Assembly (NCBI GenBank): GCA_009760855.2
Contig: WPIO01000003.1
Coordinates: forward strand, 13,383,001-13,447,000
Source of the DNA: Cristatella mucedo
Taxonomy: Eukaryota; Bryozoa; Phylactolaemata; Cristatellidae
DNA length: 64,000 nucleotides
Direction of reading: 5' to 3'
Positions within the stretch are counted from its first letter, which is position 1; the number at the start of each line of letters is the position of its first letter. The notes beneath the pieces are model-generated. The model ran no database searches. It saw nothing but the letters and a program-made list of their open reading frames with translations, and was not told the DNA's origin. Of the stretch, positions 485-56,352 are shown piece after piece. Made by a program: the position numbers and the translations under genes.

Positions 485-1059
485 CATTGGAGCCTGTGAA
501 CCCGGACGTAGTGCTGCCAAGAGATATGCTGCCCATGGTCAGCTCTGGCTCGTCGCGCTTCTTCTTCTGTCGAATGAAGAACGGGTCGGGGCAGCATTTG
601 GACGGGAGCGCCGATGACTGTGCCGCCGAGTCGACGTCGGAAGCTGCTCTCGTGGCGACCGGAAGCAAGAGGCGCCGCCAGGCGCGGACGTTCACGACTC
701 TGGCCTGCTCGGGTTATCTCAAGTTCTGGACTTCGCCGAAGCTGCCTGCAGAAGCGCAGGCGCACGACACCCCCGGTGGCACAAGCGGCGGCGGCAGCAG
801 CTCTTCGGCCGCTGCTACCGCTGGCGCCTGCACCGCCAGCAGTGGTGCAACGGCAAACCCGTGCACGGCGGCTGGTAGCGAGGAGAGCAGCAACCTGAGC
901 TGTCTGGTTGCTGTGGCACACGTGCCGAAGGTGTTCGGCAGTAATGACCAGGCATCTTGGCAGGGCATCGCATCGGCTCAGGGCGTGACCAGTGTTCAGC
1001 AGCTGTTCTTCAGCACACGACTCTCGGACGACTGCAGATTTCTCTTCGTCGACACGTGG
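485..1059 (+). CDS. BMAL1-like exon: linker and first part of PAS-B
   Basis: The acceptor follows a strong pyrimidine tract, and the exon starts with two bases of a split Ala codon. The translation contains [12 protein letters not shown], then a basic KRRRQAR stretch, [18 protein letters not shown], a Gly/Ser/Ala/Thr-rich low-complexity insert from about 760 to 885, then [16 protein letters not shown] and ending FLFVD. This follows BMAL1 order through the start of PAS-B. The insert is longer than the short acidic linker of vertebrate BMAL1. The donor is either the GT at 1059 or the one at 1056. Both give the phase needed by the next exon. The second keeps spacing closest to vertebrate BMAL1, so the boundary is uncertain by 3 nt. 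Confidence 0.85.
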
Positions 1060-4000
1060 TCAGCGCAAGCAGGCTCGGCACATGTGTACTGCCGTTTTGT
1101 TGGGAATGCTAGAAATAGAGTGCGTGCGCATGTTAGTGGCCTGCACACGCATGCACACAGACACAGATACAGGTGCAGTTATGCTGCATTTATAGCACTT
1201 CTCTTTGCAGTGTCTTCACAGTGACTGGTCACCTTCCACAGAACATTGTTGGTACAGGCTTCACCGACTACGTACACGGTGAAGACGTCAGTGCCGTATC
1301 CAGTCTATTTTCAGAAGGTTTGTCTCAGCCGATGGATTTGACCTATGTACTTGAACCTATTGTCCTCTTTGACCGTGAATTTTATAACTCCCGGTGGTCT
1401 CACACTACCTAGCATTCCCAGCTGTGTGAATGAGTTTTACATCAAGCTTGGAGGCTCAATTCCTACGATGCCCAGAGGTAATACTTGGACTGGTCTCAAT
1501 TGTTCGTTTGATGTTGGAATAATGGATCGACCATTGGGAAGGCCAGCGTTGCAGCAGAACTGTATACATTCACCGCAATGTTGAGCAGGTCTTGATGTCA
1601 TTGATGAGGTGTTCAAAGTATTAAGGTGCTGATGCCAGGTGTTAGCTGGAGAGGGCAACGTCTGAACGTGTGAATCTCGCAGGATCATTGATCACTCGTC
1701 TTAAACTTTTTATGTTGACTATGACTGATCGGTAGAACACTACTGCTATTTTGAAAGTTAGTAGGGTCCTCGTGCCAGCTGTTCTTGCCTCTAATTTCAC
1801 CTTGTGCACGACAGTCTATTGTCGGGTATTCCTACCGGTTGCTTAACTTGGATGGGGCTACTTAGTTTGGGACTGACTACACAAGAAAATCAATTGATCT
1901 TAGATGTGAAGCACGACAAGTCTCGTCAATGTTCGTTATCACATCGAGTTTGCCGTTGTGAGTGAAACGAGAAATCAAGGGTCTTAAGAATAATGGTCAC
2001 ACCTTTCCGGACGTACTGTGCTTGTGCTGTTCACTTTCGTACTCCGAGACGTCTAAACCAACAGTAAGGTCTATTGTTATGCTTTCATTACTTAAATGCT
2101 GTCATGAAAGTCAGTAAAAACATTCACTTTATTAATGATTTGCTGGTTGTATGAGCACTGGAGACCAAATATTAACTGTCGATATGGCGATATTCTGCAT
2201 CCCATTATGCATCCCTGGCCAGCTTCTTGCTTGGAAAAATGTGTGCCTCTTGCCTTTAAATTACTTTACGTGTTGTTCATCTTTGTAGTATGCCTTTTGC
2301 CTTAGAGCCACGTGACTTTTGCCTTAGAGCCACGTGACTGAACGTCAGTAGCTTCCTGCCCACTGCTGCGAACAGGGCTGCCCAATTATTGGCCTGCTGC
2401 CAACGTGCTACCTCTTGTCTTTTATCACAGGTTGCTCTGGAGCGTTTCTGCTGCTATCTGCTTTGCAACATCTGGTACTAGGTGTAATGACAAATCCACG
2501 TTCTTGCTTTGTGATATAATCTTTGCATCGGCAAAAGTCCTGAACAAAGCAAAGCAAGGTGGAAAGATGCTTTCTAGAGGGCCTATATTGCATTGTGAAT
2601 GGCTGATTTGGTAGCTTACGTAAAGATCGCTACCAAATTGGGGAATTAAAAACAAATTTAAACTCGTTTCTGTATTCTGAGTCTCTTTGATTTTCGGATA
2701 CTGTCACCTTTAGAAGCCTTTACTGTTATCTGATTCCACATCCCCATGGCCGGTGGGCAGCCTTGCTTTGAGGAGTCGTTTTAAGCTCTAACAACTCAGT
2801 GCAATGAAAAAATTGTTGCTGTATTTTTACACCAATGGCAGCCGAATAGCAATCGATATCGAGTTTTAGTACTCTGACTGATGGGATTAACCTGCTGTGT
2901 AGTAATCCATGTGTAGTGACCCATGGCAATGCCGACTGGCGCTCTCGAAGCATTCGATCCTGTAGCTGGCAGGTGGACGCGTCTTCAGTGCATGGTTAGA
3001 GTAGCTCTTGTTTAGCCTACGGAATGTGCGCTAAGAAAGGCAAGCGCCGTGGGTGTATTGGTGCTGTCAAGCGATTGTCGAGTGTCTGTGGCACTGTGTA
3101 GGCACACTGTGTAGATGCTACCCTTAGCTTCACTGCGGTCTCGGTTCTTCATCTTCTTTTTGACGCAATGATCTGCCCCTCCTCGTGTGTACCCTTGTTC
3201 AGGCTGGGCGCTTAATTGCAGTTATACATACCAAGGAAAAGCTCATGTCATCACCGTTTCGCTTCAAAAGGTCAGATGGTAGTTATGCAGTTGTGCGATG
3301 CACTGCCTGGTGCTTCGTGAATCCATGGACGCGAGATGTCGAGTTCATCACTTGCACTGTGAGCCTGGTGTAAGTATAGCTTCCTGGAAAAGAAAACGGT
3401 CCGCTAGCCTAGCCGAACTACGTATTGCGCACCAAGATGCCTAAATGCCGTGTGCTGCCGGCTCTTTGTGTTTAGAGAGGATGGCATGCCAATGGACGAT
3501 GGCCGTTGTGGGGAGAGCAGGCACGGAGGACCATACATGTCTGAGTCTTGGCTGCAAGAGCAGCAGCAACAGCAGCAGCAGCAGCAGCAAATGGAACAGG
3601 TCAAGTACGAGATGCCGCGCTCTGTAGACTCATCCAACACGGACCAGAGCTTCGAGTAAGTGTGTATTGTCTGCTTGCTTTTTGAACGACATCCCTATCA
3701 TAGTAGGGTATGCAGGTCCATAGTTGCACATTGTTGACTGGCATGAATATAATTAGTTTTGGAAAGTTATCAATAAACAGAGTTAGGTTCAACTATCACA
3801 TTTCTAGCTTCAAATCATTGGTCAACTTGGTTGGTTCAGCATGCTACTCTAATATAGTACACACCAGGCCTGCAGCTGCTCACACAGTCATTCCAGAGGC
3901 GAGCAGATTTGCTGGTCCGAGCTCCACTGTACATTTTGGATGAGGCTTGAAGTTTGTTTTTGCCTTACTGATTGCTGTTCACCTTGATCGGTATCATTCA

Positions 4001-5173: not shown

Positions 5174-8100
5174 GCAATGTGAGCATAGGTACATTTGTAT
5201 TGCATGGTGCTAACTGGCTTGTGAGTTCTGTTCTGTGTATAGTTTCCCCGAATTAGGTTTCTAGTGCCAAGATGCTAAACAAGGAGTTGCTTAAGTTCTC
5301 TTGGGGTGCTATACAAATGAATTATATTTATAGCTTTGCATGACTTGACCAGGGTTATATACCGTTGGCATCTCGTTATTGAAAAGGATCTATAGCTGAA
5401 TACGCTCTGTTCTTTGTTGTAAAAACTTGCAGTATGTATGCTTCTAATTAACGAGGCCTATCAATGCTTCTTTTGTTGAATCGCAGGCGGCTCCCTGCAA
5501 CATTTTCGACCAATTCACCGGTTTTTAATAATTGAGACCTGCAAAAAGAGTTTCCGACAAGCAGACACTGTCAACTGCACTTCTGTGCTCTTTATTCAAT
5601 AGTTTTAGCACTGTCGTAGCTTTGATATTAAATGCCTTACACTCCACAGAGGGGGTGTTCTTGTTGACTACTACCATGTTTTCTTTTTCCTCATTTTTCA
5701 AAGATTTTAGGAAAAATTGTTACCAAACAGCTTGTGAAGCTTGCAAAAGCTTTCTAAAACGTATCAGTCTGCATTGAAGCTCCATTATTCTACGGAATAT
5801 GTTTTTCCGACTTAATAGCTGCATAAAGATTGCTGTCATGGTCCTTGGCAACGTTTTTCGGTAGCATTTGATACTGTTGATTACCAGTCTTTCCATACTA
5901 GAAGAAGTAGTCAGTCAGATGGATATGGCTCGGGTGAGGTTTGAGTTATACCTCTCCGACAGAATCCCGTCGGTTTTGCTTGATCGGCTAACCTTTCATA
6001 TGTGAACTTCTGAAAAGAACTTTTTTTATTCATAGCCATCTGCTGTATAGTGCCTCAGGAGTAGGCACTGTCAGGCATTCTGGCTTAGTTAACATGCATT
6101 TCTTCGGGGCGACACCTAGCTGTACTGTTCGTGCATAGTGAGACCATCAGAAAATGTTCACTGTCTCATTTCTTCTTTGACGGCCACCTGACTGTCGATA
6201 CATTTTTCATAAGATTGCTTGCCCTTGCAGAGGTCAATAACTTTTATTCTAGCTAAGCTTTTATTTATTTAAGCTTTAAGTCTAGCTAAGATCCACTGTA
6301 GTTCTGGAATAAGTTTTGCTATGAAAAGCTCCTCGATAGCTAGTCCTCAGTATTGGCCACCACTCTCTCTGATAACTCCGATAACTCTAAGAAATTGAAG
6401 ACCCCTGCAAAAGATCCTGACTTAGCTGCGATGTCAGCCAAAATTATTACTGTCACATTCTAAGACTGCCATGGTTTGGCATCCCTTACTGAATGAGCAG
6501 TTGTAGCAGCAGTATCAAGTCCTCTCAATACGAATTAGCTGCTTTTTTTCTATTGCTTAAGACTTGTTAGTAGCTTTTCTGTTCTGCAGGTTGAAGACCG
6601 TGGAATTTGTGCTGCAATTCTTCCTCTATGGCTTTGCGCTCAATGCAGATTCGGGTTACCCCAGTGCAGTCGTCGTTGCTACTAGTACTTCTTTACTTAT
6701 TTATGATCTTGGCTGAACTTAAGCTATGCTTATCTCGTCTGGCTTCGTTGTGAGTTTTACACAGTTTTACATTGTTTCCACAGTTGTGTATCTGCTGCTC
6801 TAGCTATAGTTTTCATGGCTTCGTTGAGTCAACATGCAGTGACATTTTGATAACATTGCATACTTTAAAGTCCGCGAGTCTACATGCACACAGATATCTT
6901 GTTCTTTGTGCAGAAGCCCCGTGGTCCTGCAAGTTTGTTCTTCAGGCAGCAAAGCGGGACCACCTCAGCCTGAACTTATGTTCCCCAGAGTTTGTAACTT
7001 TACCCGAATCAGCAGTAACATGATTCTCATAGTATCTCTTACCATATTAACTTGATGCTTGAGGCACCACCGGTCATTAGTTAGCAGGGCTTTATTGTGC
7101 TTTTTTTTGCTGTTAAGCCGTTGTCGGGTCACTCTGGAAGCCGATGAGGAAACCCGTAGACATCGCTGCTCGTTATTTAAGAAACTTGGTAATAACAATC
7201 ATAGTGATGGTAAAAATTAAGCGTTTCAAAGCATCCCAAGAGAACTACATCTCTGTTTTCACACGGCACAGAGGCAGAAACAAGCTTATTAGCTCATTAG
7301 TCACATGCACACAATAGCAAGCAAAAAGCTGTTGGCATTGGGACCAGTGAAGCATGCAACCGATGAGCTACATAGACTTTTCCCACAGCCGGCATTTTAA
7401 TAATTTTTTTGTTATTGAAGTGATACCAGCTGGTACGTGACTGGGCGATGTAGTCTTTGCTGCAGTCGGTTGGTTATTGCCCATTCACTCCCCTTCCCCG
7501 GAAGGAGGTTTGAATTAAAGTAATGCGATTTGGTGAGACAAAAGGACACTGAGACAAAGCGTTTGCTGTGAGGAGCAAATGGCTTTTGGTTGTGCTTAAA
7601 TTGTACTGAATTCATGCGATAATGGAATGAGTCGGCAGAGAGCTCCCAGTGTAGATACATAGGAAAGGCCTCGAAGTAGTTTGAAATGCCAGTGAACGCC
7701 GGTGTTGCTGGACCGACAGGCAGGTTAGCGGCACACTCATAGAGCCCCGTGTTTACTGTCACATTCGCTGTAAGTTTGCCGGAAGTAGCAGTACACCGGG
7801 TTTCACGTGGGCTGCCTTTTTTTTGTAGGGAGGTATCCCCAGCTGTTCGAGCAGCTTCTGAAGGTAAAAGGAGTATGTTTATGCTGCGTTGTGCTCATTG
7901 TCAACTTTGCCTTTAGCTAACTTTATTTCTAACTAACCTCAAATCCTTTTGAGACCGTGCCTTTAGTAAGTATGCTCCGAAATCATATAAGTCACTACCA
8001 GCTTATGTCACGACATCAGCTGATTTGACGATGTTTAAAAACAAGCTATAACCCACCTGGTCCTCACTGCATTTGCTCCATCCATGTGAACTGGGCATAG

Positions 8101-8291
8101 TATCACTAGCCAATTTACATCCTTCCTCTTTGCGACCGAGGTTGTGGGTTCGAATCCTACAGTGGGCGATTCTTTATTGCCAATTGCAAGTGATGGTGAT
8201 AGCCGTTAAAGCGCTTCAGTTGCTATACAAATAAGGCTGTTAAATCAGCTAATACTTTCTTTTTTTCTCCAGCAATGTTAAATACCTAATG

Positions 8292-8365
<74 letters not shown>

Positions 8366-11300
8366 TTGAGGGAGAAAGATTTAATTCTCTTAGGGTGCTA
8401 TGGAAATGATTTATTATTATTATTCTTTATCGTGCACAAATATAGTGTTTATGACTGTTTATAGGTTCGTCCTTAGCATAAGACTTAGGTCGTCTAGACC
8501 TAGGTCGTGGGTTTAAGTTCTGGTAGGCAATTCTTTATTATCCATTGCAAGCAGGTGCGATGATCACTAGGGCTCTTCTGCTACTATGTAAATGAGGCTG
8601 ATAAATTAGCTGACCTTTACTTTTTTACTTTACTGTCAAAATGGGGATCTTTTCAATGATTGTGGAGGTCGTGGGGTCAACTTGCAGGGACGAACAGCTA
8701 AAATTCTCTTTCTCTCCTGCACTATAATCTTCCTTTGAATACCGTTGGCGTTATGTAAGCTCCACTGAAAGTTCACAGAAATATATTATAGGTCTCGGCA
8801 AGCACAAAAGGCAAAGGGTAATTTGCAAAAAATGCTAGTAAGACACATTCGACGATAAAGATCTGTTGTGCTTAAATGAATCGGAGAGTTGCCATTTCCT
8901 GGATATTTTGGTGCTTCTATTAGTGATAATCGTTACTGCTTTAATTAGTAATAACCGTTACTGCTTTTTACCTTTTAAGGCACTTAATGGTTCACAATGT
9001 AGTGTGAGCTGTTAAATTTTCTTGAGGCAGTTTGACAGTTTTGTTTAAGCTGTCGGCAACCTCTCCGGGTCTTGCTTTCATGTGTATCAGACTCAAAGCT
9101 TCAATGAATCACCAAGCAGACTGGAAGCTAGAACACCTTATCTGAGAAAGCTATACAAGTGTCTTATTATTGTTATTACCTAACTCCCGATGCATGTTTT
9201 GTTCAGCCATCGTGTGTTCATGCAGTCGGGAAGCAGACGTTGGAATTATCTCAGCAGCTGAGAGAGATTGATGTCTAAATCTGATGCACATAAGCCTAAA
9301 ACTCGTTGAAGTCAGAGGGCAAGCATCCAAAGCTTCTAACCCCAGGTACCCCTGGTGTGACGACAATCTACACCAGCGGTTTTCAACCTGGGGGTCGCGA
9401 CTTCTGTGGGGTCGAACGACCCTTTCACAGGGGTCGCGTAAGACCATCGGAAAACACACATTTCCACATTTTGCACACAGTAATTTTATGGTTGGGGTCG
9501 CCACAACATGAGAAATTGCATTAAAGGGTTGCGGCATTAGGAAGGTTGAGAACCACTGATCTAGACCAGAGGGTTTTGCAATCGGCCAGACGTTCCATGT
9601 AGGTACCTGGTGTTTAAGGACCTAGCAATTATTGGCACTGTCTTATAAATGCTCCATTCGCCTGAGCAGAACTGTATCACGGTTGAGCCAGAGATATGTC
9701 AGCTTTTGTATGACAATGGCCAGCTAAATAAGGGGTGAGCTAATGCACAAGGTGTAGTGGAATACAGTCTGGTAGCATGTCTCCATTGAGCATTTCTGCT
9801 GCAGCCTGATCGTTTGGGGAGTTACCGTATCACCATCTGAGTGGACTAGCGTGCAACTCAAGCAGCAGATGCAGTCTGTGGTTGCCGACCACAGTGCATA
9901 CAGTGATTGCAGCTTAGCACCCAATTGCAATTAAAAGGTAGCAATGTAGCCAGCAGCCCATTAAACACTGAAATATTTAATAATAATAATTATACATTTG
10001 ATAAAGCGCCCTTAGAGAACTCAATCTCTTTCTAGGCGCCTTACAATTGCTGCAAAGGAAGCACGATGAAATGGTTAGTGGTAGCATGCTCAATAAATAA
10101 CAAGATAACATGGTTAGGGGTGACAGGGTCAGCATGCAAGTATGGTTAGTGGCAGCATGCAGCAGTGTCAGCACGCATAAGCACAGGCGCCCAGTATGTA
10201 CTGTCATAAATAGATGCGTTTTAGTTTCTTTTTAAACGTGGATAAGTCCAGGAGATGTCGTCATACAGGTCGGGAGTGAGTTCCAGGCTTTGGGAGCATA
10301 TGAACATGATACTTTGATTTCGTGCAGATTCAGCAGGAGATATGCTGGCAGAGCCGATTTTTCGTGTCAGCCTTTCCAATTTCTGAATCACACTTGGTTT
10401 GCCCATAGCTAGTAAATTAGTTTTATCGTCATTTAATTTAAGAAAATTTGCTGCCATCAATGTGCGGATTTCATCAATACATGCAGCAAGGGAGTTGAGA
10501 GAATTCGACAAGCAAGAGGGCTGGGAGGGATCAAACAAAGGTACAACTGATTGTCATCTATTTAAAAGTGAAAGCCTAGATTGTACCTGGCAATCACATT
10601 GGCAAAAGGGAGGGTATAAACCGTGAAAAGAACCGGACCAAGCACGGAGCCCTGGGGTACCCCACATTTCAGGGGTTTCTCTGATGGTCTTTGTTAATTC
10701 GCATCAACACTGGAGTCTTCCACTGAGATAGGACCTGTACCATTGCCAGTGATGCACAAAATCTTTCATCGTTTCGGTTATCTTTATGTATTTAGGCCCA
10801 TTGTCCACGGTAATTGGCTCTGAAAGCTATGTAAATGGCTCTTCCATTTAGAATAAAAGGGTTGTATTTTAAAGACATTTTTAAAGTTTTGCGACCTGTA
10901 TGAGTTTTTACTATCCTCTCTGCATGTACGTTTGTGCCAACAGCATTGGTCTGACTAGGAAGTTGTATTCGATTTTTTTTGGCTTTTATGAGTTTGTACG
11001 ACAAGTTCTTTAGCAGACTGCCTTCGGGCTTTATTTTCAGCAAAAAAGCAACGATTATCATGTTTAAGCTGTATGTGCCCAACAAGGACTAGGGGTAAGG
11101 AATGCTGAAGTGATCTGCAATAAAGCATAGTTATTTCTTTGGGCCAGACGAAGAGATATTGCCGCAAACGAAACCGTCGCATCACAATTAAACCATTAAT
11201 ACTTACATGCTAAGAATAGTGCTAGGTTGTCAAGTGCCCGACTGACAAGCAGGAGGATCGTTAGCTGCTCGATTGTTTTGTCTTTTTCATTGGACGTACG

Positions 11301-13884
11301 ACGAAAAACGGGGGTTGTTAGTGTGATCTGCTTATGTGTTGTGTTAACGGGGTTATAAATTTACACAATGCAGTAGCTAAGATTAGTTGATTACATACAT
11401 ATTGATCTATGCCAAAAGAGGGTGAGGTCACAGTGAGAAAACCTGGCATTGACCAAAACCACTATATGTAAACGGAATAATCTGAGTCAAGTCCATAGAA
11501 CGCTTTCCTGAACCGCCCACCTGGTCGGTCTTATGAACATGGGCTAAGGCCGAAACGACCTTGTAGACGGGTGCCTCTTAGCTACCAGAATGCTTACCAT
11601 ACGCCACATCTTTATTGTCGCATCGCGTTGCAGCTAAATAAAATGGCAAATTTAAAGTTACACAGACATCGAATTTGACCGCATACTCTGTTAAACAGTT
11701 GTGCACATAGTGATGTCATTCGGGAGGGGAAAGTTTCCGAAAGCAGAAGACAGACCCCCTGGATACTTTGTGGAAATGTCCAAAACCGAACATCCTTCGT
11801 CGAATTGCAAATCGTCTATGCTGATACGTTCGGTCCGAAATGTCTTGATTGCCGTACTTTACCAAAATTGATAGTACCTGGCCGAGCCTGTTGTTGCAAT
11901 TGGTTCCCTCTCTCTCCCTCTCCTTTCATTCCTTCTTCTATCCTTCCTCTCTGTTTCTCTCTTTCCGTCACTCTCTCTGTCTCTCTCCCTCTTGCTCTCT
12001 CTTCTCTGTCTCTTTCTCTGTCTCTCTCCCTTCCTCTTGCTCTCTCCCTCTCTCTCCCTCTCTCTCCCTTTCTCTCCCCCTCTCTCCCTCCCTCTCTCTC
12101 CCTCTCTCTCCCTCTCTCTCCCTTTCTCTCCCTCTCTCTCCCTCCCTCTCCCTCCCTCTCCCTCCCTCTCTCTCCCTCTCTCTCCCTCTCTCTCCCTCTC
12201 TCTCCCTCTCTCTCCCTCTCTCCCTCTCCCTCTCTCTCCCTCCCTCCTTGCCTCTCTCTCTGTCTGATCGCTCCTACCTAAGAATGCAGACATGGGTAGA
12301 GTATCTCTGCTTGTTTTGCTCGATCTTTCAGCAGCCTTTGCTAATATCGATCACCAAGTTCTTCTGGAGCGCCTCTCATCTCGTCTGGGCATCACTGGCA
12401 CTGCTCTGCAATGGTTCAGGTCCTATCTCAGCAGGAGACTCCAGAGTATTGATGTGAATGGACCGAGATCATCTGAGGCACCTCTGAAATATGGGGTACC
12501 TCAGGGCTCCGTACCTCAGGTCCGGTTCTTTTCACGGTTTATACTCTCCCTCTTGCCGATGTGGTTTCGAAGCACAATCTAGGCTTTCACTTTTATATGG
12601 ATGACAAGACACTCAGTTGTACCTCTGCTTTGACCCTCCCAGCCTTCGAGCACCTCGAATTCTCTCAACTCCCTTGCTGCATGTATTGATGACATCCACA
12701 CATGGATAGCAGCAAATTTTCTTAAATTAAATGGCGATAAAACCAAATTATTAGCTATGGGCAAACCAAGTGCGATTCTGAAATTGGAAAGGCCGACGCT
12801 AAAAATCGGCTATGCCAGCATAGGTCCCGTGGAATCTGCACGAAATCTAGGTGTCATGTTCCGAAGTGACTTTTCGTTAGACGACCACATCAGCTCCACA
12901 ATCGTCTGCCTACTTTCAGCTACATGAAATTGCTAAAAGTCTGGCTTGTTTAGATAAGGATACCACATCTAAGTTGGTCCATGCATTTGTGACATCCCGT
13001 CTTGATTTCTGTTACTCACTGCTTGCTGGCCAACCGGCATGTGCAATCAGGTGCTTACAGCTGGTGCAAAACTCTGCAGCTAGGCTTGTCTGTCGTGAGT
13101 GTCGCAATTACCACCGCACACCACTTCTCGCCGATGTGCACTGGCTACCAGTCAAGCAACGGATCGACTTAAAGGTTTTTGTCGCTCACTTTTAGGCCCC
13201 TTCATTCTTTGGCTCTAGCCTATCTATCATATCTACTCCCTCACCAGGCCAAGCACCGTACTACCTGCTTTTCGGAATCTAAATTAAAAAAATACCTCGT
13301 ACAAGCCTCAAATCCTTTGGAGACCGCGCCTTTAATTTTCGTATGCCCCCAAAGCCTGGAACTCATTTCCTACTTGCGTCACGACATCCCCTGACTTGAC
13401 CACATTTTAAAAAGAACTTAAAAAACCCACCTATTTATGACAGTATTTAGTGGGTCCCTGTGATTCGTCTTGTATGTTCTTATTCGTGCTGACACTGTTT
13501 CATGCTGCCACTAACCACACTTGCATGCTGACCCTGGGCATGTCACCCCTCACCATGTTGTTTATCAAGCATGATACCACTCTCCATTCGATCGTGCTTC
13601 CTTTGCAGCAAATTTAATGCACCTAGAACGAGATTGAGTTCTCTTAGGGTGCTTAATCAAGTGTATTGTTTTTATCTGTCTCTATATGTCCCTTGAAAGC
13701 GATGTGCATTGTTGCCAATTGACAAGTTGAGACCTCAATTGCCAACTATTTTTCAGCAAGTACCATTATGCCAGAGGATAATGACAACGATAACCCGGAG
13801 ATGTCGATCATTATGAACATTCTTGAAGCCGATGGCGGCCTGGGTGGACGGGTTGACTTCACGGACCTACCATGGCCGTTATGA
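485..13884 (+). CDS. BMAL1/cycle (ARNTL) circadian bHLH-PAS transcription factor, 3' part of gene
   Basis: The product would be the positive-limb clock factor that pairs with CLOCK on E-boxes in the nucleus. Exons in the window are 485-1059, 1211-1317, 3222-3369, 3476-3655, a tentative 7829-7863, and 13757-13884, all on the + strand. The identification rests on collinear matches to BMAL1: an RFFFCRMK segment before [61 protein letters not shown], and the terminal tail ending DFTDLPWPL. Exon phases join without shift through 3655, and the microexon restores the phase needed for the last exon. The bHLH and PAS-A domains lie upstream of the window. The BMAL helix that precedes the tail in vertebrates (around EEIMEIHRIRG) was not found, so one or more exons may be unrecognised or the region has diverged. 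Keeping the C-terminal tail implies a BMAL1-type activator rather than a Drosophila-type cycle. Confidence 0.9.
1211..1317 (+). CDS. BMAL1-like exon: middle of PAS-B
   Basis: The acceptor is TCTCTTTGCAG ending at 1210. The exon reads [20 protein letters not shown], then [15 protein letters not shown], matching the BMAL1 PAS-B segment with LPQELLGTSCYEYFHQDD. It ends with one base of a split Val codon before the donor GTTTGT. The phase joins exactly to the exon at 3222, giving SE-VIHTKEK opposite the vertebrate RQ-VLQTREK with no gap. Confidence 0.88.
2295..2338. promoter_or_regulatory. Tandem E-box pair in BMAL1-like intron
   Basis: A 22-bp unit is repeated exactly twice, at 2295-2316 and 2317-2338. 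Each copy carries CACGTG (2309-2314 and 2331-2336) in the context GCCACGTGAC. CACGTG is the canonical binding site of CLOCK:BMAL1 and of other bHLH factors such as USF, MYC and MITF/TFE. Its placement inside the gene for the E-box-binding factor raises possible autoregulation. That is inference: an exact short duplication could also be neutral. Confidence 0.45.
3222..3369 (+). CDS. BMAL1-like exon: C-terminal half of PAS-B
   Basis: The acceptor is TTAATTGCAG ending at 3221, and the donor is a consensus GTAAGT at 3370. The translation includes [32 protein letters not shown] and [18 protein letters not shown], the beta-strand core of PAS-B. The NPWT..VE[FY]I motif is typical of BMAL/ARNT proteins. 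Without splicing, the reading frame reaches a stop immediately after the donor, as expected at an exon end. Confidence 0.9.
3476..3655 (+). CDS. BMAL1-like exon: post-PAS linker with polyglutamine
   Basis: The acceptor is CTCTTTGTGTTTAG ending at 3475. One base completes a Val codon begun in the previous exon. The reading frame gives [20 protein letters not shown], then a run of ten Gln (3561-3590), [10 protein letters not shown] and ending NTDQSF plus two bases. The donor is GTAAGTGT. Low sequence conservation is expected in this part of BMAL1. The assignment rests on matching splice phase and an open frame between strong signals. Confidence 0.75.
3561..3590 (+). repeat. CAG/CAA repeat encoding ten glutamines
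   Basis: Ten consecutive Gln codons, nine CAG and CAA mixed, lie in frame in the post-PAS exon. The tract is likely length-polymorphic. Confidence 0.85.
4965..5175 (+). mobile_element. CR1/L2-type LINE, 3' tail only
   Basis: The segment carries the LINE 3' untranslated end shared by all copies here: CATGCTGCCACTAAC, GACCCTGTGCATGTCACC, then GCAGCAAATGTAAAGCGCCT and a terminal (TTA)n run at about 5148-5174. It is heavily 5'-truncated and lies in a BMAL1-like intron in sense orientation. Confidence 0.8.
5280..5331 (+). mobile_element. SINE-A relic, 3' end
   Basis: Only the tail is clear: AAGTTCTCTTGGGGTGCTAT followed by ACAAATGAATTATA. This matches the end of the complete SINE-A copies at 27710 and 41177. 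The tRNA-like head is unrecognisable. Confidence 0.6.
5865..6000 (+). mobile_element. Decayed reverse-transcriptase fragment of a LINE
   Basis: The + strand reads AFDTVDYQ near 5869 and, in a second frame, [14 protein letters not shown] near 5940. These resemble the AFDTIDHQ and W.RSYLS.R.QSV blocks of the non-LTR reverse transcriptase seen in the better copies. The frame is broken and the ends are unclear. Confidence 0.45.
7829..7863 (+). CDS. Tentative 35-nt microexon of the BMAL1-like gene
   Basis: The segment sits between a strong acceptor (a T-rich tract then GTAG at 7828) and a donor GTAAAAG at 7864. The preceding exon leaves two bases and the terminal exon needs one. This 35-nt segment accepts two and leaves one, joining both exons and coding [12 protein letters not shown] across the junctions. 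The sequence itself has no diagnostic match, so it could be coincidence. An alternative is a 3-4 nt shift of the last acceptor. Confidence 0.35.
7925..8105 (+). mobile_element. CR1/L2-type LINE, fragment of ORF end
   Basis: The translation follows the LINE C-terminal block [20 protein letters not shown]: the copy reads AACCTCAAATCCTTTTGAGA and continues through the [14 protein letters not shown] equivalent to about 8050. It lacks the usual 3' tail and is followed at once by a SINE-B copy. Confidence 0.65.
8125..8268 (+). mobile_element. SINE-B copy, 5'-truncated
   Basis: It holds a perfect Pol III B box GGTTCGAATCC (8147-8157) and the family body: GGCGATTCTTTATTGCC, GCAAGTGATGGTGATAGCCG, TTGCTATACAAA and AAATCAGCTAATA. 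The first part of the tRNA-like head is missing or diverged. Confidence 0.75.
8296..8363. repeat. (GA)n microsatellite
   Basis: About 34 uninterrupted GA units. It lies between two SINE-B copies in a BMAL1-like intron. Confidence 0.95.
8480..8622 (+). mobile_element. SINE-B copy, diverged
   Basis: TAGGTCGTGGGTTTAAGTTC, then CAATTCTTTATTATCCATTG, GCTCTTCTGCTACTATGTAA and AAATTAGCTGA follow the SINE-B order seen at 42434 and 63719. The B box is degraded (GGTTTAAGTTC). Confidence 0.65.
9374..9558. mobile_element. SPIN-like (Space Invader) non-autonomous hAT element
   Basis: A 185-bp element with terminal inverted repeats: CAGCGGTTTTCAACCT at the left, and GGTTGAGAACCACTG at the right, the inverse of CAGTGGTTCTCAACC. 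It is flanked by near-identical 8-bp target duplications, ATCTACAC (9366-9373) and ATCTAGAC (9559-9566), as hAT elements produce. The interior carries GTCGAACGACCCTTTCACAG, AAGACCATCGGAAAACACA, GTCGCCACAACATGAG and TTGCGGCATTAGGAAGGTTG, which I recognise as SPIN non-autonomous sequence. SPINs are known for horizontal transfer among tetrapods, with reports from a few invertebrates. No transposase is encoded. It sits in the last BMAL1-like intron. Confidence 0.85.
9978..10757 (-). mobile_element. CR1/L2-type LINE, 5'-truncated
   Basis: On the - strand the order is a reverse-transcriptase piece (about 10757-10650, including the GVPQGS region), then [20 protein letters not shown], a diverged remainder, and the shared 3' tail ending in (TAA)n at 9978-9990. 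Several frameshifts and an internal loss make it inactive. Confidence 0.8.
10758..11905. other. BMAL1-like intron, no feature recognised
   Basis: AT-rich intronic sequence. I see no exon, RNA gene or repeat family that recurs elsewhere in the window. Confidence 0.5.
11906..12262. repeat. Polypyrimidine minisatellite, (CTCTCTCCCT)n type
   Basis: About 355 bp of almost pure C and T on the + strand, built from irregular CTCTCTCC and CCCTCTCT units. It abuts the 5' end of a LINE copy. The open frames through it on both strands are artefacts of composition (Ser/Leu/Pro or Arg/Glu). Confidence 0.95.
12272..13665 (+). mobile_element. CR1/L2-type LINE, reverse-transcriptase half to 3' end
   Basis: It starts in the reverse transcriptase with [48 protein letters not shown] and YGVPQGSV, and continues through an FHFY.DD-like catalytic region, the thumb and the C-terminal domain ([30 protein letters not shown]). 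The shared 3' tail ends at about 13665. The ADD catalytic box and later frames are broken by indels. It lies 90 bp before the last BMAL1-like exon, in sense orientation. Confidence 0.85.
13757..13884 (+). CDS. BMAL1-like terminal exon: C-terminal transactivation tail
   Basis: The acceptor is ACTATTTTTCAG ending at 13756. The frame reads [20 protein letters not shown], then [20 protein letters not shown], Leu and a TGA stop at 13882-13884. It is a near match to the end of vertebrate BMAL1 (AVIMSLLEADAGLGG, then PVDFSDLPWPL). That tail contacts CBP/p300 and CRY and is needed for rhythmic activation. Drosophila cycle lacks it. Two bases of a split codon begin the exon. Confidence is very high because of the length and position of the match. 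Confidence 0.97.
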
Positions 13885-34200: not shown

Positions 34201-37200
34201 GCCCTCAACGAAGTATTCACCAATAACGGCGTACTGTCTAACCCAATAACGGGCGTGATGATTGGCGTGCTGGCAACCGTGCTCCTGCAAAGCTCTTCGA
34301 CTACAACGTCGATAGTCGTGGCCATGGTCGGATCGGACTGTGAGTAGTGTTCGCCGCCCTGCACGAACGCGAACGCTGAGCGCTCGCTTCTAGCGCGGGC
34401 GGCTCTCGCTTTGGCGCGGCTCTCGAGGCTCGAGGCTGGCAGCGAGCGAGCGAGCGAGCGAGCGAGCGAGCGAGCGAGCGACTCACGCGACTCCCTTGCC
34501 TGCTCGCAGCCATCTCGATCAAGCTGGCCATACCCATAATCATGGGCGCCAACATAGGAACCTCCGTCACCAACACGCTGGTCTCGCTTGGCCAAGTGAA
34601 GAAGCGAGACGACTTCCGACGAGCGTTCGGAGGCGCGACGGTGCACGACATGTTCAACTGGCTGACGGTCATCGTTCTGCTGCCAATCGAGGTGGCCACA
34701 GGTAAGGAGCAGAGTCGCGTGGAGAAATTACGCAAACATGCCGCCGAGGCGGTGAGCGCGAGCTTCCGCTTCAACCGCGACGCAGGCAGAGTCGCAGGCT
34801 GTCGGGCAGAAAGGACAGCTGCTGATGTGTCTTTCCGTTTGCATTCAGTCGACGCGAAGTCCTCTCACCTCAGCTCTTACGCCTGGCAGTCTGATAATTT
34901 GAAAAGCTTGCTGAACGCGAAGCTTTTCCCCTCCTGCTCTTTGTGACTCTGCGCATGCAATTTCTGCGCACAATCAAACCGATCAAACCGAGAGCTGAAC
35001 GTAGCAAGGCCACGTGGTGCAGCCCTCGCCAGGACACTGGAAACAGCACGTCGTTCGATCGTTGCAGGTTACTTGGCGGTCACAACAAATTTTACCATCA
35101 GCAGCTTCCAGCTTCAGCAAAATAAAGATGCAGACGTGAAGTTTCTGTCGGTCATTACGGAGCCTCTAACAAAACTGGTCATACAGGTGAGCAGAACCCA
35201 ACTGATTGCATCTCAAAGCAGCGGCTGCAAATAAACCTTTTGCCATGTGCATGACTTGGTGCAGCGTGTGCAGTGCATAATCAGATTACCGAAACCTTTG
35301 GCACCTAAATTTGGTGAATATTTTGAAGTCTAAATTCATTTTTAAGTGGTATCATAACAGCTCCAAGCCCAATAAAAGTAAGCACATTTATCTTCCAATT
35401 GAGTACCGTAAACTCGGCATGGAGGTCTTGAGAGTCTTCTAGTATCGCGCATAGTATACCTGATTCACAGAACAGGTGCCAGAGCAGGTGCCCGTTCGTC
35501 ACTGCAAGGTGCTAAACAGACAGTGAAAACGGGCTACGTATGCAGAGTTAGGCAGAGTTTAGCCAAGCAATAGACACCACATGCGCAAGCAAGAGAGAAA
35601 AAGTACAAGACGATGTAGGAAACGAGGGATCGAAAAACGGGTGAGCCAGAGAAGAATTAGGCAAGATGGGGTTGCCCAGAGAGACTAGGTGTTGAATTTC
35701 ATCACTCGAAACATCACTTTTCGCCGACAACTACTTTCTGCTCGTTTGCTTGCAGCTGGATCGAGACAAACTAATACAGATAGCAACCTGTACAAACTGC
35801 TCTGGCATCGTCCTCGCGAAGAAGTGTCCATTCGATAAGGCCTTCAAATCCTTGAACGTGACCTACGAATACTTTAACGCGACGCTGAACGAGAACGTCA
35901 CATACGTGAACGTGACCAAAATGTCATACGACACAGACAAGAGAAGCTGTAAGTAGTTTGGCAGCAAAGAGGCTCCACCGCTGCCTCTTGCCCACCTGAT
36001 GCTCGTCCTACTGATCCGCTATCTGTTTCTCTCAGGGTTCCCTCAGGTTCTCGCAGATTGACTGCCGCCCCGGACTCTGACACCTGCCAGCCGCTCAACC
36101 TTAGACCCGTGCCACCCGTGCTCACACTTTGACTTGCTGCAACTAGGCGAAGTTTCTCGATAGATTCTGGCCGCTTCTTCTCGCTCTGCCGTCCTGTCTC
36201 GTCTGGCCGATGAGCAAAATAGATTTTTCTACTGCCAACCAAAGATTTTAGACATAAAGCGCATCCGCTTCGACCGCTGCTCGTCGTTTTCAGGCGAGTA
36301 CCTATTCGCCGATGTTGCCGGCGTCTGGGCCGACGAGGTCATCGGCGCCATTCTGCTCGCCGCATCCATTGTGCTCCTCTGCGCCTGCCTGATCGGGCTC
36401 GTCAAGATTCTGCAGTCGACGCTGAAGGGAACAGTGGCCAAGGTGCTGAAGAAGATCGTCGGCCTCAACATACCGTCGAGCGCGGGCGCCTACGCGACCG
36501 GCTACATTTACATAGTCATCGGTACCGTGTTCACCATACTGCTGCAGAGCAGCAGCGTGTTCACGTCGGCGCTCACACCGCTGGTCGGCCTCGGCGTGCT
36601 GCCCATCGAGCGGGCCTACGCTCTCACGCTCGGCTCCAACGTGGGCACCACGGCCACGGCCATATTGGCCGCCCTGGCCGGCAGCAACTTGGCGAAGACG
36701 CTGCAGATCTCGCTCTGCCATCTGTACTTCAACGTCACGGGCATCGTGCTCTGGTACGTCGTGCCGAAGTTACGCTTTCCCATACCGCTCGCCAAGAAGC
36801 TGGGCGACATCACGGCCAAGTACCGGTGGTTTTCCATCGCTTACCTGTTGGGCATGTTCCTGCTTCTTCCGGGAGCTGTCTTCGCCCTCTCCATTCCCGG
36901 ATGGCAAGTCCTCGCTGGCGTCGGCGGTCCGATCGTCCTCGTCCTCGTGGCGGTCGCCATCGTCAACCTCATGCAGAGTAAACGACCCAATCTTCTGCCC
37001 AGTCGGTTGCGAACGTGGGAGTTCCTTCCGCTTCCGCTGCATTCGCTGAAGCCGATTGATCGTGTCATCGTGTCATGCTGCACCTGCTGCCGGCTTGAGG
37101 ATGTCGAGCAGGGCAGCAGCAGCAGCAGCGGCGACTCGGAAGACATGAAGGGCCTCGAGATGATAGCGACGGCTGGCAGCGGCGGCTCCTCCCCCAATGG

Positions 37201-37264
37201 ACAAACCACGCCCCCGCCTCCCTATAGCGCCCCCGCCTTTCTACCGCAAACATTCGAGTCATAG
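31144..37264 (+). CDS. SLC34-family Na+/phosphate cotransporter (NaPi-II), complete
   Basis: It imports inorganic phosphate with sodium across the plasma membrane. Eight exons: 31144-31236, 31407-31533, 33904-34035, 34196-34339, 34510-34701, 35068-35186, 35756-35948 and 36294-37264. All introns are GT-AG, every phase matches, and the sum is 1971 nt, giving 656 residues. Both family QSSS motifs are present ([10 protein letters not shown] at about 149-152 and [12 protein letters not shown] at about 418-421), as are [26 protein letters not shown] and [10 protein letters not shown]. Exon seven encodes the large extracellular loop with five N-glycosylation sequons and cysteines. In the electrogenicity triad known from vertebrates (Ala-Ala-Asp versus Ser-Ser-Gly) it has Gly206, Ala208 and Asp212. 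The retained Asp predicts electrogenic transport. The cytoplasmic tail has a short CCTCC cluster and PPPPY at 640-644. The start ATG follows an in-frame TAG. Confidence 0.97.
31407..31533 (+). CDS. SLC34 exon 2: N-terminal region
   Basis: The acceptor is GCGCAG after a T-rich tract. The sequence includes [22 protein letters not shown] and TTPWRG. The VDPW and PW motifs match the segment just before the first membrane helix in vertebrate SLC34 (DDPWNLP). It leaves one base before the consensus donor GTAAGA. Confidence 0.85.
31640..31725 (+). mobile_element. Possible SINE-B relic in SLC34 intron 2
   Basis: TCGCGGGTTTGAGTCGCGGC, then CCGCTGCAAGCGG, resembles the B-box and CACTGCAAGCGGTGG parts of SINE-B. 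It is short and diverged. Confidence 0.35.
32300..32765. mobile_element. LTR-like dispersed repeat (copy 2)
   Basis: It matches 28055-28765 in order, from ATGCCCCGCGATTATGA through a TATA box (CCATATAAGGC, about 32489) and GGTCTGCCGGTCGGTGAGTC to GGCGTATTGTTAGC. About 465 bp, in SLC34 intron 2, same orientation as the gene if the TATA is read on +. No coding capacity. Confidence 0.5.
33904..34035 (+). CDS. SLC34 exon 3: first transmembrane region
   Basis: It opens by completing a split Glu codon, then [40 protein letters not shown] and LVG. It matches GFLYFFVCSLDILSSAFQLVGG of SLC34A2. Ends one base into a Gly codon. Confidence 0.95.
34133..34152. repeat. Perfect 20-bp palindrome
   Basis: CCGGCGATCGCGATCGCCGG in SLC34 intron 3. 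It contains two overlapping GCGATCGC octamers. Confidence 0.9.
34196..34339 (+). CDS. SLC34 exon 4: first QSSS repeat motif
   Basis: [40 protein letters not shown] and VAMVGSD. It carries the first QSSS motif of the inverted repeat that forms the transport core. The donor is GTGAGT. Confidence 0.97.
34441..34480. repeat. (AGCG)10 tetranucleotide repeat
   Basis: Ten perfect AGCG units in SLC34 intron 4, about 30 bp before the next exon. It may vary in length near the splice acceptor. Confidence 0.9.
34510..34701 (+). CDS. SLC34 exon 5: substrate-site region and electrogenicity triad
   Basis: [20 protein letters not shown], then [40 protein letters not shown] and VAT. This is the most conserved part of the protein. 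It holds Gly206/Ala208/Asp212 at the sites that decide electrogenic versus electroneutral transport in vertebrate paralogues. Confidence 0.97.
35068..35186 (+). CDS. SLC34 exon 6
   Basis: [20 protein letters not shown], then [19 protein letters not shown], matching the VITKPFTKLIVQ region of SLC34A2. Acceptor CGTTGCAG, donor GTGAGC, phase 0 at the end. Confidence 0.93.
35756..35948 (+). CDS. SLC34 exon 7: large extracellular loop
   Basis: [30 protein letters not shown], then [20 protein letters not shown] and [11 protein letters not shown]. It contains five N-X-S/T sequons and three cysteines, with a fourth split across the next junction. This loop is glycosylated and disulphide-bonded in characterised family members. 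Confidence 0.93.
36294..37264 (+). CDS. SLC34 exon 8: second half of transporter and cytoplasmic tail
   Basis: It starts by completing a Cys codon ([10 protein letters not shown]), then helix [39 protein letters not shown], the second QSSS motif, [56 protein letters not shown] and [11 protein letters not shown]. The tail has SCCTCC, a Ser/Gly/acidic stretch and [14 protein letters not shown] at 37262-37264. Confidence 0.97.
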
Positions 37265-55172: not shown

Positions 55173-55374
55173 TGCGATCTTCGACCAACTGGGCCAGTAG
55201 TTTTGACCACTATGTGGAGACATAATTCTCTTTTTCTTGCTCCCAGGACAGCAATCGATGCGTTTCCAACAGTTCCTAATGCCTTCGCCAACACGGTGGG
55301 CAAGCAGGTTAGAGACATCTTTAAGCTACGCCATCGCCGCCAATTGTTGGAACCAAGAAAGTCCTCAACTGCAT

Positions 55375-56352
55375 TCAAGGAAGAGTCAGCATTGCTTCGG
55401 ATGTATAACGACCTCCCTAGGAAAAGACTTAGCCAGAGTATCTCTGCTTGTTTTTCTTGATCTTTCGGCAGCTTTTTATATTATCGATCACCAGGTTCTT
55501 TTCGACCGCCTTTCAGCTCGCCTGGGCATCACCGGCCCTGCCCTGCAATGGTTCGGGTCCTACCTCGGTGGGAGACTCCCGAGTACTGATGTGAATGGAA
55601 AAAGATCATCCGAGGAACCTCTGGAATATGGTGTACCTCAGGGCTCTGTGCTTGGTTCCATTCTTTTCATGGTTTGTACTCTCCCTCTTGCCGATATGAT
55701 AGCCATGCACAATCTAGGCTTTCATATCTATGGTGCAAAGCTCTGCAGCTAAGCTTGTCTGTCGTGAGCATCGCAGATGCCATATCGCAACACTTCTCGC
55801 CGACTTGCACTGGCTCACAGTCCAGCAGCGCATTGATTTCAAGGTTCTGTCACTCACTTTTAGTTGCATTCATTCTATGGCTCTAGCTTACCCAGTTGAT
55901 TTACTCCACCACCAGGCTAAGCATTGTACCACCCGCTCTTCGGAATCTAATCGTTTACCTATACCTCGTACAAACCTCAAATCCTTTAGAGACCTTGTCT
56001 TTAGTGCTCCTAAAGCCCGGAACTCACTTCCGTTTGGCGTTATGACATCCCTAGACTCAACCACATTTAAAAAGAAGCTAAAAACGCATCTATTTATCAC
56101 AGTATGTAGTGGGTCCGTGTGATTCGTTCTTTATGTGCTTACGCGTGCTGACACTGTGCATGCTGTAACTAACCATATTTGAATAATGACCCTGTGCAAT
56201 ATCACCTCTAAGCACGCTATTCTTGTTGTCATTGAGCATGCTACCACTAACCATTCGATCACGCTTTCCTTGCATCAAATTTTAAGTGCCTATAAAGAGA
56301 TTGAGTTTTCCGAGAGCGCTATATAAAATTTATCATTGTAATTATTTTTATT
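55375..56352 (+). mobile_element. CR1/L2-type LINE with internal deletion
   Basis: EESALLRMYNDLP, frameshift, [61 protein letters not shown], then directly VQSSAAKLVCREHRRCHI and the C-terminal block, NLKSFRDLVFS and the 3' tail. The segment from the catalytic ADD box to the C-terminal domain is deleted at about 55733, where YG runs straight into AKLCS. Confidence 0.85.

Follow-up and report, generated by a model that had tools for sequence, protein, structure and literature searches.

The 185-bp segment at positions 9374 to 9558 of the window (the whole 64,000-nucleotide stretch of DNA that was analyzed) is very probably a decayed SPIN-type miniature element (MITE) of the Buster group of hAT transposons. 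It appears to be deletion derived and to have spread in trans within a family acquired horizontally tens of millions of years ago, and it now lies in an intron, seemingly free of selection. The first-pass annotation had placed a hAT element here, and its coordinates were correct to the single base according to both the terminal inverted repeats (TIRs) and the target site duplications (TSDs). The features of the insertion are as follows:

9374..9558, + strand: 185-bp nonautonomous hAT element (Buster group, most likely SPIN type), recognized by its TIRs, TSDs, and repeat family
9374..9389, + strand: left TIR, CAGCGGTTTTCAACCT; the family consensus is CAGCGGTTCTCAACCT
9543..9558, - strand: right TIR, reading CAGTGGTTCTCAACCT on the - strand
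9366..9373, no strand: left TSD, ATCTACAC, with TA at positions 4 and 5, like the Buster consensus
9559..9566, no strand: right TSD, ATCTAGAC, the flanking octamer

The hAT-type ends and near-identical 8-bp duplications that had been described were indeed seen. The copy in the window starts with CAGCGGTTTTCAACCT and finishes with AGGTTGAGAACCACTG, its TIRs differ at 2 of 16 positions, and its TSDs agree at 7 of 8 bases. When positions 8001 to 11000 were scanned for SPIN-type ends with a duplication at a spacing of 150 to 220 bp, this single place was found, and five mononucleotide shuffles of the same interval gave none. A blastn search of the window with the family consensus found no second copy. 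Aligned over its full length, the window copy shares 92.5% identity with the 187-bp family consensus, whose 16-bp TIRs contain 1 mismatch and are short, as is usual for hAT elements (typically 5 to 27 bp as given in PMC3517528).

The observation as a whole was confirmed in that the element proved to be one member of a dispersed repeat family. The genome of the window comprises 572 Mb in 688 contigs, and the window copy used as a query returned 2,209 first-look candidates. The 40 that were scored, window copy included, each span at least 181 of the 185 bases and are spread over 28 contigs of 1.1 to 15.8 Mb, with the best of the others 90% identical to the window copy. The exact 26-bp right end, GGYATTAGGAAGGTTGAGAACCACTG, occurs 191 times in the genome, against 0 occurrences of the reversed control, and from this count roughly 950 to 3,000 right ends were estimated, assuming that copies keep 90 to 94% of their sites. 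The copy number check proposed earlier thus returned a large family. Two words of the element had no exact match in viral contigs, one word had none in prokaryote genome contigs, and blastn at an E value of 1e-5 gave no match in phages and plasmids.

For closer study, 69 loci were fetched, consisting of the 40 scored matches and the first 30 matches to the right-end word, with 1 duplicate. Full-length copies were present at 62 of them, the exceptions being L045, L046, L050, L052, L058, L064, and L067, which lack a full-length copy of the 187-bp type. Forty of the 62 had been selected by likeness to the window copy; the picks by exact right end included 23 full-length copies out of 30, one of which was shared with the likeness-picked set, leaving 22 unbiased copies. 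Flanking octamers were alike at 7 or 8 of 8 positions in 45 of the 62 full-length copies, compared with 49 of 3,782 mispaired octamers, and a clear TSD was absent in the other 17. Among the 90 octamers of the 45 pairs, the fourth base was T in 85 and the fifth was A in 87, giving a TSD consensus of nTCTAGAn. The target consensus of the Buster group is given as nnnTAnnn (PMC3517528; PMC3499496), and the Buster family is described as including the Buster and SPIN transposons (PMC3499496). The target site therefore places this family in the Buster group, a narrower assignment than the hAT identity first claimed, which it supports.

Longer elements with the same ends were also present, at L050 (319 bp), L052 (309 bp), and L046 (482 bp). 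A search with the L050 element gave 2,099 candidates, of which 40 were scored; the nonself matches ranged from 78 to 87% identity, most of them being about 319 bp in length, and an inner piece of 40 bp made up a 41st match. A 321-bp consensus was built from seven copies (L050 and six others), among which one had a TSD alike at 8/8 positions and four at 7/8. The 187-bp consensus corresponds to positions 1 to 93 (98.9%) and 241 to 321 (100%) of the 321-bp consensus, the two parts being joined by a filler of 13 bp. Since the shorter form is composed of the two ends of the longer, it is best read as an internal-deletion derivative. Counted from the alignment of the window copy with the consensus, the parts are as follows:

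9374..9465, + strand: left part common to the 321-bp subfamily (consensus 1 to 93), 98.9% between consensus sequences
9466..9478, + strand: filler replacing the deleted interior in the 187-bp subfamily; consensus 94 to 106 aligns nowhere on the 321-bp consensus
9479..9558, + strand: right part common to the 321-bp subfamily (consensus 107 to 187), 100% between consensus sequences

A separate 2.3-kb stretch between SPIN-type ends (L121, positions 33 to 2310) contains a second SPIN-type left-end fragment and is a nested or composite insertion.

The element had been named as SPIN, and the evidence for that name comes from mouse primers and from an unlabeled vertebrate-type sequence. Two reverse primers for the mouse Ate1 locus are printed in PMC2767504. 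The first matches the family consensus at 18 of 19 bases from position 1, its own first base falling outside the element, and the second matches at 18 of 20 bases at position 56, on the same strand. By eye, the two interior differences of the second primer are a CG-to-TA change, as CpG decay would give. A mouse Kcnq1ot1 primer, whose sequence is printed in PMC6221546, matches at 19 of 20 bases at position 60. The window copy itself fits the Ate1 primers less closely than the consensus does (16/19 and 17/20). The primer papers were found by means of words from the element, which fixed 12 bases in each seed match beforehand; the extensions of the seed matches and the second Ate1 primer are independent of those words. 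Altogether, near-identical sequence is present in a tetrapod, with 55 of 59 bases (∼93%) matched over three primers from two mouse loci, which supports both the SPIN identity and horizontal transfer. The primers themselves carry no SPIN label; mouse is a SPIN host.

The 321-bp consensus agreed at 297 of 324 columns with an unlabeled SPIN-type sequence that we take to be the vertebrate type. Over the interior of this reference sequence, 126 of 133 positions agreed, with the last ∼13 bases unaligned. The ends of the reference sequence were set with the 187-bp consensus already known; its interior is presumed to be independent of L050. No labeled SPIN sequence was found by a word search of published text in which candidates were mostly judged by title, and none of the element words tried is printed in the available text of PMC11614815. 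A mouse sequence in PMC11247941 was ambiguous and was set aside as evidence for SPIN. Buster1 and Buster2 were ruled out as identities, the ends printed in PMC4298943 differing from CAGCGGTTCTCAACCT and CAGTGGTTCTCAACCT. The element most likely belongs to the SPIN family, judged from sequence likeness, so that the name stands on the mouse primers and the unlabeled reference sequence.

The claim that the element lies in a clock gene intron was supported by BMAL1-like exon sequence on the + strand on either side of it. The query for tblastn was an unreferenced human BMAL1 sequence, and it located the following:

544..1053, + strand: BMAL1-like exon sequence between the PAS domains, a weak match (23% identity, long gaps, E value of 1.8e-4)
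3221..3370, + strand: BMAL1-like PAS-B exon sequence (E value of 3.8e-8)
13786..13881, + strand: BMAL1-like last exon with the C-terminal motif (E value of 2.2e-9, 22/32 residues identical)

The 50-residue piece encoded at 3221 to 3370 had basic helix-loop-helix ARNT-like protein 1 as its best solved relative (E value of 3.5e-9), with ARNT and Drosophila cycle ranking behind it among solved structures. Taken by itself, the frame at 544 to 1053 matched neither a Pfam family nor a solved structure, and the last exon had no match among solved structures. With the BMAL1 query, nothing credible as an exon was detected in the interval from the PAS-B exon to the last one; the element lies in this interval and is therefore intronic in the BMAL1-like gene. 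Nothing seen suggests a function for this single copy. Downstream of the BMAL1-like gene, also on the + strand, exons of SLC34, a Na/Pi cotransporter, were observed at 34380 to 37264, with the Pfam match above the curated cutoff at 36164 to 37261 and below it at 34380 to 34943.

The host was examined through its mitochondrial DNA and this neighboring gene. Translation of the mitochondrial contig (C688; 21,008 bp) follows the invertebrate code. Visual reading places nad1-nad6-cob-nad4L-nad4-nad5 on a single strand, COX1 alone having been identified by family search; this gene order is known from molluscs and other lophotrochozoans. Among the best 120 of 7,999 COX1 matches, named relatives (gastropods, octopods, nemerteans, and others) were up to 82% alike, and one further record was 95% alike. 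When the host was placed in a midpoint-rooted COX1 tree with 37 of those 120, it formed a separate long branch together with the 95% record. The SLC34 protein was at most 59% alike to any relative among the best 120 of 928. From these sequences, the host is an invertebrate, apparently a lophotrochozoan; the mitochondrial code, the COX1 relatives, and the separate branch all agree with the invertebrate host that had been claimed. The mitochondrial DNA (L106, L107, and L111) also has a repeated block, present at least four times and in either orientation, and cox2, nad2, and rrnL lie on the strand opposite the other genes seen (by eye except for COX1 and rrnL).

Genes for a transposase were sought in two ways. 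Of 766 candidates for the hAT dimerization domain, 150 were scored and gave 138 matches. These included a young hAT family of 30 loci (L071 to L100), with frames of up to ∼640 amino acids that were 99.0 to 99.9% alike to one member; this family is possibly still active in the genome. None of its 30 fetched loci had a SPIN-type end in the 1.5 kb flanking the domain on each side. TcBuster-like copies gave 69 matches among 890 candidates, at 28 to 34% identity, and 65 of the 69 contained stops. Three of these loci (L108 to L110) belong to an older Buster-type family of ∼2.7 kb with the end CAGGGGTGTCCAACC, to which L114 was joined by 95% identity, and two others (L112 and L113) belong to a second such family of at least 3.2 kb with the end CAGGGGTCGGCAACC. 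No SPIN-type ends were present at these six loci, the ones read among the 69. The CAGGGGTGTCCAACC-end family resembles the Buster2 ends printed in PMC4298943. As autonomous partners, L121 was rejected for its foreign filler and L045 because all that survives there is 42 bases of the right end; neither has a TcBuster match. An autonomous partner with the ends of the present family was not found among these loci, which are a minority of the hAT and TcBuster candidates.

Copies of the family have diverged substantially. Measured against the consensus, the Kimura distance averaged 0.060 among the 40 copies selected for resemblance to the window copy and 0.104 among the 22 full-length ones selected by exact right end; the window copy itself lies at 0.068. 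The 22 unbiased copies had a mean pairwise identity of 83% (231 pairs). With assumed rates of 2 to 5e-9 per site per year, a divergence of 0.104 would correspond to ∼20 to 50 million years. The OC1 paper describes DNA transposons as having passed among vertebrates and invertebrates ∼45 to 15 million years ago (PMC3621081). Preservation was compared with other repeats of the window, in which one reverse transcriptase domain frame was found by Pfam (55207 to 55749). Copies of the D7 family overlapping that frame were 74 to 84% alike to the reference copy, and among the inverted repeat pairs in the window, not classified singly, the 25 longest were 72 to 95% alike. Set against the 83% pairwise identity of the unbiased copies, these values do not show the element to be clearly better preserved than neighboring LINEs, and the claim to that effect is not borne out. 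Since the unbiased copies are also ∼10% from their consensus, the recent arrival proposed in the first-pass annotation is unsupported. The window further contains, at 9986 to 10077, a copy of a dispersed repeat (D8) with a SINE-like look and the motif AGAGAACTTAATCTCTTTCTAGG, of which five further copies were observed, and a family of 12 copies (D6) carries a comparable motif on the opposite strand.

In the history that we propose, a longer SPIN-type element would have lost its interior to yield a short noncoding MITE. A transposase acting in trans would bind the shared ends and excise the element, which would then be pasted into nTCTAGAn-like sites with duplication of 8 bp, and this at many sites. 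The trans mobilization is attributed to a SPIN-type transposase presumed to be lost or unseen. One copy would have entered the BMAL1 intron and then decayed without selection. The family most likely entered this invertebrate lineage tens of millions of years ago, through horizontal transfer.

An alternative that we regard as unlikely is that the element belongs to a different Buster-group family, which would share terminal and subterminal sequence with SPIN and move in the same way but have a non-SPIN descent. Buster elements are reported to be alike over ∼106 terminal bases (PMC4298943), so that ends alone could mislead and the SPIN label falls short of certain. The same genome also carries other Buster-type families, with the ends CAGGGGTGTCCAACC and CAGGGGTCGGCAACC, and the label itself goes back to an unlabeled reference sequence and to primers that do not bear it. 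However, the TIRs printed in PMC4298943 for Buster1 (CAGGGCTTCTTAAAC and variants) and for Buster2 of bat (CAGGGGTGGCCAACCT) are unlike CAGYGGTTCTCAACCT, two of the three mouse primers fall in the interior, and the 321-bp form fits the presumed vertebrate type in its interior as well, beyond the ends (126/133). SPIN descent is preferred.

The presence of the family in an apparent protostome and in mouse could in principle reflect a MITE of ancient animal origin that was passed down vertically and simply conserved. This is very improbable, because the host and mouse lineages separated long before the time implied by the ∼10% divergence of the unbiased copies from their consensus, and a noncoding element would not be expected to keep ∼93% likeness (55/59 primer bases) for so long without selection. 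Vertebrate contamination or misassembly of the contig, to which the fit to mouse primers might point and which had been named in advance as counting against the claim, is contradicted by the 40 scored copies on 28 contigs of up to 15.8 Mb. The low likeness of the neighboring SLC34 to its relatives and the invertebrate code of the assembly's mitochondrial DNA argue the same way, leaving this explanation almost no weight.

A SPIN-type MITE acquired horizontally, the preferred reading, can be set beside known systems. It shares with SPIN of tetrapods and Rhodnius, and with the SPIN-like hAT of Biomphalaria, its Buster-group placement, an 8-bp TSD with central TA, high-copy short MITEs, a fit to printed mouse primers, and an occurrence in invertebrates. 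What may set the present family apart is its 187-bp class with a 13-bp filler, in a host that has no close named relative by COX1. Buster1 and Buster2, described from planarian, insects, and bat (PMC4298943), fall in the same group, produce internal-deletion MITEs, and show a patchy spread that has been read as horizontal transfer. The subterminal repeats printed for Buster1 have the motif TGGGTCGCG (PMC4298943), which occurs once in the family consensus, whereas the TIRs differ, as described above. The Mar MITEs of Drosophila are likewise of the Buster group, with a TSD of nnnTAnnn and an internal-deletion origin, but their TIR is given as CAG(G/A)GGTAGGC (PMC3517528).

Few examples of DNA passing between distant animal phyla are as clear as SPINs, which are known also from Lymnaea. 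SPIN has already been reported in Rhodnius prolixus (PMC11614815), and a hAT element with significant identity to SPIN, in about 1,000 copies, has been described in Biomphalaria glabrata (PMC5440852). With these bug and snail cases in print, the novelty attached to an invertebrate SPIN is unsupported, and what is described here is likely a new host added to the known SPIN story, with no new kind of element. Tentatively, and with less than even confidence, the data may record a SPIN-type invasion of a lophotrochozoan lineage, independent of those of the snail and the bug, in which the vertebrate-type 321-bp form was kept, a host-specific 187-bp form arose, and the timing was that of the known wave. 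If true, the invaded lophotrochozoan lineage would possibly represent a phylum or class without reported SPIN. With its many copies and two length classes that can be dated, a further invertebrate host would help to chart which animals exchanged such DNA and when, and it could bear on whether invertebrates acted as donors, vectors, or bystanders.
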